This document shows, one piece after another, positions 23,535 through 25,152 of a stretch of 33,110 bases of DNA (positions are counted from its first letter, which is position 1; each line of letters opens with the position of its first letter). The position numbers and the translations under genes are program-made. The notes under the pieces were generated by a model that saw only the letters and a program-made list of their open reading frames with translations, was not told the DNA's origin and searched no databases. Origin of the DNA: Leptolyngbya sp. SIO4C1 (GTDB lineage: Bacteria; Cyanobacteriota; Cyanobacteriia; Phormidesmidales; Phormidesmidaceae); NCBI GenBank assembly GCA_010671975.1, contig JAAHIA010000008.1, positions 1 through 33,110 on the forward strand. Direction: 5' to 3'.

Positions 23535-23888
23535 ATGCCGCTCATCAAAGTTCAAACTTCAGTCGAAGGACCCGCTAAAACCACTGTCGAAGCTTTGCTC
23601 AAAGATCTCTCAGCTAGCCTATCCAAGCATCTTGGTAAGCCGGAGTCATACGTCATGACGGCATTCGAGCCGAGCGTTCCCATGACCTTTGCCGGCACCA
23701 CAGATCCGGCCTGCTTCATTGAAATAAAAAGCGTGGGCACCATGGGCGGCGGTAAAACTAAAGCCATGAGTCAGGACTTCTGCGCCAAAGTGCAAGCAGC
23801 GCTAGGCGTGCCAACTGATCGCACCTATATTGAATTTGCCGATGCTCAAGGCGCGATGTGGGGCTGGAATGGAACAACTTTCGGCTAG
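23535..23888 (+). CDS. Phenylpyruvate tautomerase / MIF-related protein
   Basis: MPLIKVQTSV with N-terminal Pro after Met; GKPESYVMTAFEPSVPMTFAGTTDPACFIEIKSVGTMGGGKTKAMSQDFCAKVQAALGVPTDRTYIEFADAQGAMWGWNGTTFG. Confidence 0.9.
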   Translation: MPLIKVQTSVEGPAKTTVEALLKDLSASLSKHLGKPESYVMTAFEPSVPMTFAGTTDPACFIEIKSVGTMGGGKTKAMSQDFCAKVQAALGVPTDRTYIEFADAQGAMWGWNGTTFG

Positions 23889-23897
23889 CGGTATCAT

Positions 23898-23963
23898 CTT
23901 TAGCGTTCCTTTATTGATATTCACAGGGCTTTTACGACGTGGCCCAGATCAAAAGGGTAGAGT
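23898..23963 (+). promoter_or_regulatory. Unit 1 promoter: four-box TTTAC-like array plus -10-like hexamer
   Basis: CTTTAG, CTTTAT, ATTCAC, TTTTAC; box A residues at 23902, 23913, 23923, 23934 (spacing 11/10/11). TAGAGT at 23958-23963, 24 bp after the last A. Confidence 0.65.
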
Positions 23964-23969
23964 AAATTT

Positions 23970-24041
23970 AATTCCTGAACAAAACCCGTGCTGAAAGCTC
24001 TATGGGTAAAGCCCTGGCAAGCCTGCCAGGGCTATTTTATT
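23970..24041 (+). ncRNA. Candidate small RNA, unit 1 (about 70 nt)
   Basis: No convincing ORF. Starts 7 nt past the -10-like box; 5' CCTGAACAAAACCC; one small hairpin (ACCCgtGCTgaaAGCtctatGGGT) then the terminator. TSS is inferred, not measured. Confidence 0.55.
24010..24041 (+). terminator. Intrinsic terminator of unit 1
   Basis: AGCCCTGGCA-agcc-TGCCAGGGCT perfect 10-bp stem followed by ATTTTATT. Confidence 0.8.
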
Positions 24042-24211
24042 GGCCTTTTAAGATGCAGCCTGCCACCAATAGCGCCGGCCGCCTGAGTGAGAATAGCGAC
24101 GATTGCTGAGCGCGCTCTAAGCGGTCTCACCTTTAACGGGCTAGCGATCGCTACGCCGCCGCTACGATGGCAAAATCGCTGGCATCAGCCCGCTAACTTA
24201 GACTAACGAAG

Positions 24212-24277
24212 CTTTAACCCGTCTTTACTATGTTTTACAGCGTTTTTACAGCGGCTGACTGGCGTCTGCTCTACAGT
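24212..24277 (+). promoter_or_regulatory. Unit 2 promoter: four-box TTTAC-like array plus -10-like hexamer
   Basis: CTTTAA, CTTTAC, TTTTAC, TTTTAC; box A residues at 24216, 24227, 24237, 24248 (11/10/11). TACAGT at 24272-24277, 24 bp after the last A. Confidence 0.68.
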
Positions 24278-24283
24278 AAAGAT

Positions 24284-24393
24284 GGCTCCTGAAAATCTCA
24301 CTGTCCACCGACTTTTTATACAGAAACCCTACTTCTTATACGGACATCCCTATAGCTAACCTGCCCCAGTCGCTGAGCGACTGGGGTTATTAA
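24284..24393 (+). ncRNA. Candidate small RNA, unit 2 (about 110 nt)
   Basis: No convincing ORF; CCTGAAAA at 24288 sits at the same offset from the -10-like box as CCTGAACA in unit 1; ends at a strong hairpin. Confidence 0.55.
24364..24393 (+). terminator. Intrinsic terminator of unit 2
   Basis: CCCCAGTCGCT-g-AGCGACTGGGG perfect 11-bp arms (a few loop-closing pairs open in practice) followed by TTATTAATT. Confidence 0.75.
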
Positions 24394-24416
24394 TTACTGA
24401 CATTTCCGCTAACGGT

Positions 24417-24704
24417 CTAAACTGGCTCACCATCTAAGAGTTCAATCTTGCCAGACTCTCTGACGCATTCTAAACGCCACCGCTGCCCGCTCACTTTGCC
24501 TGGCAAAAAGCCCACTACCGTCAAATAAGACTCCCGTCCTTCATAGTCGACCTTCAGCAGTAGCTCACCTCGGCTCTGGCTGACAATCAGCGCGGTTATT
24601 TCAAACTCGCCCTCCTGCGCCCAGGGAGGAAGCGACTGGTCTGTCTCTCGATCGGCAGTGCGCGCCACTGCAGAAATATTGTCATTTTCGTTTGAAGTAG
24701 CCAT
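24417..24704 (-). CDS. Small hypothetical protein located between candidate sRNA units 2 and 3
   Basis: About 95 aa from ATG at 24704 (ORF extends to 24776): MATSNENDNISAVARTADRETDQSLPPWAQEGEFEITALIVSQSRGELLLKVDYEGRESYLTVVGFLPGKVSGQRWRLECVRESGKIELLDGEPV. No family recognised. Confidence 0.6.
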   Translation of the reverse strand: MATSNENDNISAVARTADRETDQSLPPWAQEGEFEITALIVSQSRGELLLKVDYEGRESYLTVVGFLPGKVSGQRWRLECVRESGKIELLDGEPV

Positions 24705-24877
24705 AGTCTTACTCGCAGTTGGTGTACAGGATAGACCCCTCACTATTCTGGCGGATAATTTTGCTGAGCCTATCACTTTTTTAAATAAACTATCGTCTGA
24801 CTGCTCACAGTATCGTTGCCAGCACGGATTTTCGGGATGATCCGCAATACAAATTGAGCAGCGTTTTGTATCGCTAT

Positions 24878-24943
24878 CTTTAGGCGCCCTTCACGGAGAT
24901 TTACATAGCGTTTACGGACACTGCCAAGCAGATCGCTTAGATT
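24878..24943 (+). promoter_or_regulatory. Unit 3 promoter: four-box TTTAC-like array plus -10-like hexamer
   Basis: CTTTAG, CTTCAC, ATTTAC, GTTTAC; box A residues at 24882, 24893, 24903, 24914 (11/10/11). TAGATT at 24938-24943, 24 bp after the last A. Confidence 0.65.
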
Positions 24944-24949
24944 AAATGC

Positions 24950-25125
24950 AGATGTTCGGTTTATGCCGACTGTGCTTGTGTCCTTCCTGACACAGTTTCT
25001 CTAACGCCTACATATTTTTAACGGTCTATATTTCACGCTCTATTGCCAACTCTATATTGTCGACCGCCTGTCGACGTCACCCTATGTGTAATCAGCCCCG
25101 GCTAGCCTGCCGGGGTTATTTAATT
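24950..25125 (+). ncRNA. Candidate small RNA, unit 3 (about 175 nt)
   Basis: No convincing ORF; internal stem candidates (TGTC...GACA near 24980-25000 and GTCGAC...GTCGAC near 25060-25078); ends at a hairpin homologous to the unit 1 terminator. Confidence 0.5.
25094..25125 (+). terminator. Intrinsic terminator of unit 3
   Basis: AGCCCCGGC-tagcct-GCCGGGGTT followed by ATTTAATT; aligns to the unit 1 terminator with a T-A to C-G compensatory change. Confidence 0.75.
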
Positions 25126-25152
25126 GGCTTGAAGCTGGATGACTGACCGTCT

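Follow-up and report, generated by a model that had tools for sequence, protein, structure and literature searches.

The window analysed here, a 33,110-nucleotide stretch of DNA from the cyanobacterium Leptolyngbya sp. SIO4C1, contains a seemingly empty region in which three small regulatory RNA genes most likely lie in tandem, each behind the same rare four-box switch. The order of features is flavin reductase, MIF/tautomerase gene, unit 1, unit 2, a 95-codon frame on the minus strand, unit 3 and dnaX (minus strand). The 95-codon frame has no Pfam match and no homologue among the 80 MIF loci described below. The features are as follows.

23535-23888, plus strand: MIF/tautomerase-family gene directly upstream of unit 1; context, outside the units
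23899-23938, plus strand: unit 1 four-box array TTTAG/TTTAT/TTCAC/TTTAC, A's at 23902, 23913, 23923 and 23934
23958-23963, plus strand: unit 1 -10 element TAGAGT (T1, A2 and T6 invariant in 25 arrays)
23970-24041, plus strand: predicted sRNA of unit 1 (about 72 nt), of the unit 3 type, with its terminator hairpin at 24010-24033; model R1 E 0.009
24213-24252, plus strand: unit 2 four-box array TTTAA/TTTAC/TTTAC/TTTAC, A's at 24216, 24227, 24237 and 24248
24272-24277, plus strand: unit 2 -10 element TACAGT (pattern match and array alignment)
24284-24393, plus strand: predicted sRNA of unit 2 (about 110 nt), the second of the two RNA types, with its terminator hairpin at 24363-24387
24316-24344, plus strand: two copies of the TTATACNGA motif in unit 2, TTATACAGA (24316-24324) and TTATACGGA (24336-24344), 20 nt apart
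24417-24704, minus strand: 95-codon open reading frame between units 2 and 3
24879-24918, plus strand: unit 3 four-box array TTTAG/TTCAC/TTTAC/TTTAC, A's at 24882, 24893, 24903 and 24914
24938-24943, plus strand: unit 3 -10 element TAGATT (pattern match and array alignment)
24950-25125, plus strand: unit 3 predicted sRNA, about 176 nt; terminator hairpin 25094-25117; model R1 E 1.8e-4
From 25016, plus strand: conserved 3' part of unit 3, containing TATGTGTAA at 25083-25091

Promoter arrays and predicted RNAs

A sequence-only reading of this region had described three plus-strand units in which the A residues of the boxes are spaced 11/10/11 bp, with a TA[CG]A[GT]TAAA element 24 bp past the last box A and 56 bp between box 1 and the -10 element. 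Checking of the positions bears this out exactly in all three units; the 9-mers start at 23958, 24272 and 24938, and the 56 bp hold when measured from the first box A. When both strands of the window were searched for the eight combinations of 10- and 11-bp spacing, matches were obtained for 11/10/11 only and at these three arrays only, and the plus-strand matches to the 9-mer in the window are likewise confined to these three. A genome-wide pattern search of the kind proposed by the same reading, run with TTYA-N7-TTYA-N6-TTYA-N7-TTTA, returned four matches in the 5.3-Mb assembly, three of them here, and none for the reversed control; the array combined with the -10 pattern, allowing up to two mismatches, again gave these four sites and none in the reversed control. 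The fourth site (G000 contig 557, 8480-8544; L001 1501-1565) has a poorer -10 element, TATTAG; neither a recognised gene start nor an evident hairpin RNA follows it, and the site may be a chance match.

Each unit closes with a strong, terminator-like GC hairpin followed by a short AT tail, as had been claimed, and the predicted sizes of about 72, 110 and 176 nt agree with the earlier 70, 110 and 175 nt, both sets being derived from sequence only. Folding z-scores of the predicted RNAs against shuffled sequence are -4.4, -2.9 and -2.7 for units 1, 2 and 3, respectively, all in the direction of better folding. The alignment of the RNAs contains no base pair with a change on both sides, leaving the conservation of structure unproven. 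No credible coding sequence was found, consistent with the earlier reading: closed frames inside the predicted RNAs have at most 20 codons, and the reading frame is not kept in relatives. It is very improbable that the units encode tiny proteins or are leader or attenuator RNAs rather than sRNA genes, a notion to which the short frames in unit 3 lend some support, but which is at odds with the lack of conservation of these frames in relatives, with the terminator that closes each unit ahead of any gene, and with the position of the downstream annotated-size frames on the opposite strand. With a terminator, an intergenic location, no conserved ORF and a promoter of its own, recognised by its letters and their conservation, each unit has the sequence features expected of a trans-encoded sRNA gene.

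Distribution in relatives and two RNA types

The window locus aligns weakly with two genomes of the same family, and these matches pointed to relatives. Scanning of named genomes with the MIF protein yielded 80 loci, seven of which, all from the Leptolyngbya/Leptothoe/Adonisia group, have one to three units right after MIF; the MIF-like gene of the window is the orthologue of the gene preceding the units in these relatives. The seven relatives contain 14 promoters in all, each with the 11/10/11 and 24-bp spacing, and their RNAs of about 75 nt end in UAUGUGUAA and then a CCCCGGC hairpin. A covariance model (R1), built from 13 RNAs of the relatives with the window left out, was searched over 391 genomes of the class. 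In this genome it found two places only, unit 3 and unit 1, which also match each other and the 75-nt RNAs of relatives (0 of 500 shuffles were as good). The model further detects members in other genera of the family, one (G013) with a recognisable array of the same spacing and one (G004) with a degenerate array. Both the exact search and the model search confine the arrangement of units after MIF to the Leptolyngbya/Leptothoe/Adonisia group and the window.

The sequence-only reading had held that absence of the arrays from close relatives with the same flanking genes would count against it, and this is partly what was found. The seven relatives keep the array, but in the nearest relatives by MIF gene, Leptolyngbya BC1307 and Phormidesmis, MIF is followed by another gene and no array, and in Leptolyngbya SIO4C5 (L034) MIF adjoins dnaX, again with no array as judged by eye. 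The locus thus occurs patchily and within a restricted lineage. On the MIF tree, the distribution of arrays requires at least two gains or losses; given the arrayless closest MIF relatives and SIO4C5, either there has been more than one gain or loss of the locus, or the species tree differs from that of MIF.

In the relatives, CRP-like palindromes (GTGA-N6-TCAC, mostly GTGATCTAAGTCAC-like) cluster in the spaces that separate and follow the sRNA units, with 12 in arrays (L025 1889, 2238 and 2485; L029 4499, 4848 and 4906; L032 5086 and 5342; L035 4712 and 5119; L038 4614; L045 4818) versus one elsewhere in these loci, which suggests cAMP-receptor co-regulation of the units in the Leptolyngbya/Leptothoe/Adonisia group. 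The array of the window has none.

Unit 2 carries repeated UUAUACNGA motifs that are matched in other genera; RNAs from three genera contain two to four copies of the motif each, at intervals of about 14-22 nt. Searching for close pairs of TTATACNGA motifs gave unit 2 as the only match in this genome and, elsewhere, terminator-closed sRNA-like sites in four more genomes belonging to two genera. A profile built from these sequences, unit 2 included, found the RNA in many more genomes of one of the two genera, located before a strong terminator and without a four-box promoter, and this RNA is the best match of unit 2 (0 of 500 shuffles as good). Because its best match is this RNA, while units 1 and 3 match each other, unit 2 represents a separate RNA type. 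A search with the promoter pattern showed a second site in the Leptolyngbya/Leptothoe/Adonisia group (L109, L110, L111, L104, L233 and L234). Where a gene was seen ahead of it, that gene encodes an ABC-transporter ATPase; the same four-box promoter drives other RNAs at this site, two of them in tandem in one genome. One RNA type at this second locus (model R2) occurs in one genus only among 292 genomes, and one has UUAUACAGAAACC in common with unit 2. The RNAs of the second locus were suspected to be PsrR1, an identity rejected on comparison with the provisional S. elongatus candidate discussed below.

Two further observations concern RNAs with repeats. In one genome (L160, about 1500-1620), a psbA gene is followed at a distance of about 400 bp by an RNA of the unit 2 type that contains three CTTATACNGAAAGC repeats. 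In L163 (about 1480-1600) and L164, an RNA has three or four TATACAGA repeats directly before the terminator and CCTCACACACC ahead of them; the latter resembles the Yfr1 core motif, and an Rfam search of this RNA gave no Yfr1 match.

The proposal of co-regulated, non-coding units is strongly supported, both by the exact promoter geometry in three genera and by the fact that a model built from relatives alone retrieves units 1 and 3. The accompanying notion of three paralogous sRNAs is not quite right, as two types of RNA stand behind a single promoter type. Units 1 and 3 can be recognised as paralogues, whereas unit 2 belongs to a second type found elsewhere in other genomes; common descent is consequently established for the promoter but not for the full set of three RNA bodies.

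Promoter code and candidate regulators

Twenty-five distinct arrays from three genera keep the 11/10/11/24 geometry without any indel. In their consensus, CTTTAg-N5-CTTTAa-N2-A-N2-TTTAC-N3-G-N2-TTTAcGG followed by TANNNT, the box letters are nearly fixed, and the second T of each box, the G after box 3, and positions 1, 2 and 6 of the -10 element (T, A and T) are invariant. If transcription starts 7 nt after the -10 element, the boxes would occupy about -71 to -33 on one face of the helix. This is a usual place for an activating dimer pair of the OmpR/PhoB type, and the regulator looks like a response regulator of that type. Since the code is strict, with the same spacing in 25/25 arrays, the promoter offers a means of finding further members and of identifying the regulator.

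The arrays agree in part with the consensus sites of RpaB and SphR, and fully with neither. The HLR1 site of RpaB reads KTTACAWW-N2-KTTACAWW with a 10-bp period, and its activating position is quoted as -66 to -45. It is possible, if doubtful, that RpaB is the regulator, that the arrays are multi-box HLR1 sites, and that the units are part of a light-response regulon that includes the sRNA PsrR1. The TTTAC boxes look like half-sites of HLR1, the 10-bp period is present between boxes 2 and 3 (box 3 with the TTTAC core), which also lie near the activating position, and PsrR1 sets a precedent as an RpaB-controlled sRNA. Against this, the outer periods are 11 bp, the A/W positions are not matched, the psaD promoters of four of these genomes have a two-box, 10-bp site (by eye) rather than four boxes, and the S. 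elongatus PsrR1 candidate has a single canonical HLR1 at its core promoter and an unrelated body.

Somewhat less probable still is that SphR acts on the arrays as variant Pho boxes, making the units phosphate-starvation sRNAs. The SphR Pho box is CTTAACCT, at least three of which mark the Pho regulon, and in E. coli Pho boxes are described as 8 bp with 3-bp spacers, consistent with the outer period of 11 bp seen here. Box 1 of unit 2 is TTTAACCC, and the pstS promoters of these genomes carry CTTAACCT and CTTTACY boxes with an 11-bp spacing, followed after about 23 bp by a -10-like element (by eye). However, the arrays are made of CTTTAG, CTTTAA, TTTACNG and TTTACGG at 11/10/11, so that the middle period is 10 and boxes 3 and 4 read TTTACGG rather than TTAAC, and the pst promoters, which have an 11-bp pair of boxes (by eye), are without the 11/10/11 pattern. 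These comparisons with psaD and pst promoters settle the identity of the regulator neither way. Weak matches to the promoter pattern were also seen ahead of CpeS-like lyase genes.

Proposed action and comparison with known systems

Every unit is equipped with a promoter-like array and a terminator of its own, and two conserved RNA types can be told apart, one formed by units 1 and 3 and the other by unit 2. Judged from the sequence comparisons, the likely reading, held with fair though not full confidence, is that these are three free-standing sRNA genes of two types, switched together through the four-box array by an OmpR/PhoB-type regulator and acting in trans. Such a response regulator would bind the four head-to-tail boxes on one face of the DNA and act as an activator at a promoter without a clear -35 element, turning on all three units together. 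The RNAs would then act in trans, with base-pairing to mRNAs the most probable mode, and the parts involved would be conserved stretches that lie apart from the terminator hairpin: the repeated UUAUACNGA motifs of unit 2 and the UAUGUGUAA region of units 1 and 3. With several units per cell, the dose would rise and one signal could control more than one set of targets. Sitting uneasily with this reading are the unit-2-type RNAs that lack a four-box promoter in another genus, the missing double-sided base-pair changes, and the absence of the units from several relatives that keep the neighbouring gene. Moreover, sites complementary to CUUAUACAGAAACC were no commoner than in the reversed control in ten genomes, and no target was therefore found.

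That result is more in line with the main rival to mRNA pairing, in which the repeated UUAUACNGA motifs would sequester an RNA-binding protein, as CsrB/RsmZ do with CsrA. The recurrence of the motif in RNAs of three genera is consistent with such a sponge, but the motif is unrepeated in units 1 and 3 and in the 75-nt relatives, is not the CsrA (GGA) motif throughout, and has no known binding protein, rendering this rival unlikely. A further, speculative idea, only slightly less unlikely, is that of a dedicated response regulator whose four-box promoter is found on sRNA genes only, forming an sRNA-only regulon with two unrelated bodies, one of them a multivalent UUAUACNGA sponge.

Searches of Rfam 15 covariance models gave no sRNA match at the gathering threshold, weak matches only, and chance-level matches at lax thresholds. 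No description of this sRNA family was found in the open-access literature searched, which is not proof of absence. The units are probably an undescribed family of regulatory RNAs recurring in related species. RNA annotation of this cyanobacterial lineage is sparse, and a conserved sRNA family that has apparently not been described before is an addition to it. The combination of a fixed promoter and a changing RNA body provides a clean case for studying how an sRNA regulon grows.

Several known systems share features with these units. CsrB has repeated short motifs and a terminator. The unit 2 type is similar to CsrB/RsmZ sponge RNAs in both respects, but its motif is not the CsrA GGA loop and a sponge role is putative. 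SphR/PhoB Pho-box promoters resemble the arrays in having tandem head-to-tail boxes with a period of about 11 bp upstream of the -10 element, and differ in box letters, in the middle spacing, and in that their known targets are protein genes. PsrR1 (SyR1) is, like the units, a cyanobacterial sRNA with TTTAC-type promoter boxes; it is trans-acting, about 130 nt long and RpaB-controlled, and targets the ribosome-binding regions of psaL, psaJ, chlN and cpcA. Unlike the units, it has in S. elongatus one canonical HLR1 with a 10-bp period at the core promoter, and its RNA sequence is unrelated. The reference used was the likely gene in the S. elongatus genome, placed by the published PCC 7942 coordinates and to be taken as provisional, and shuffles were as good as the real similarity to it in 487/500 cases for unit 2, 30/500 for unit 3 and 3/500 for unit 1, the likeness of unit 1 being likely due to the shared GC-rich terminator.

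In organisation, the units come closest to NsiR1 of Nostoc sp. PCC 7120, an sRNA of about 60 nt present in tandem copies, some diverged, with individual promoters that have a common motif (PMC9045159). NsiR1 has 12 copies upstream of hetF, under HetR/DIF1 control in heterocysts. The units described here, in contrast, have neither the DIF1 motif nor hetF downstream; in the window and its relatives they come in one to three copies behind a four-box array, have other neighbours (MIF and dnaX), and comprise two RNA types.
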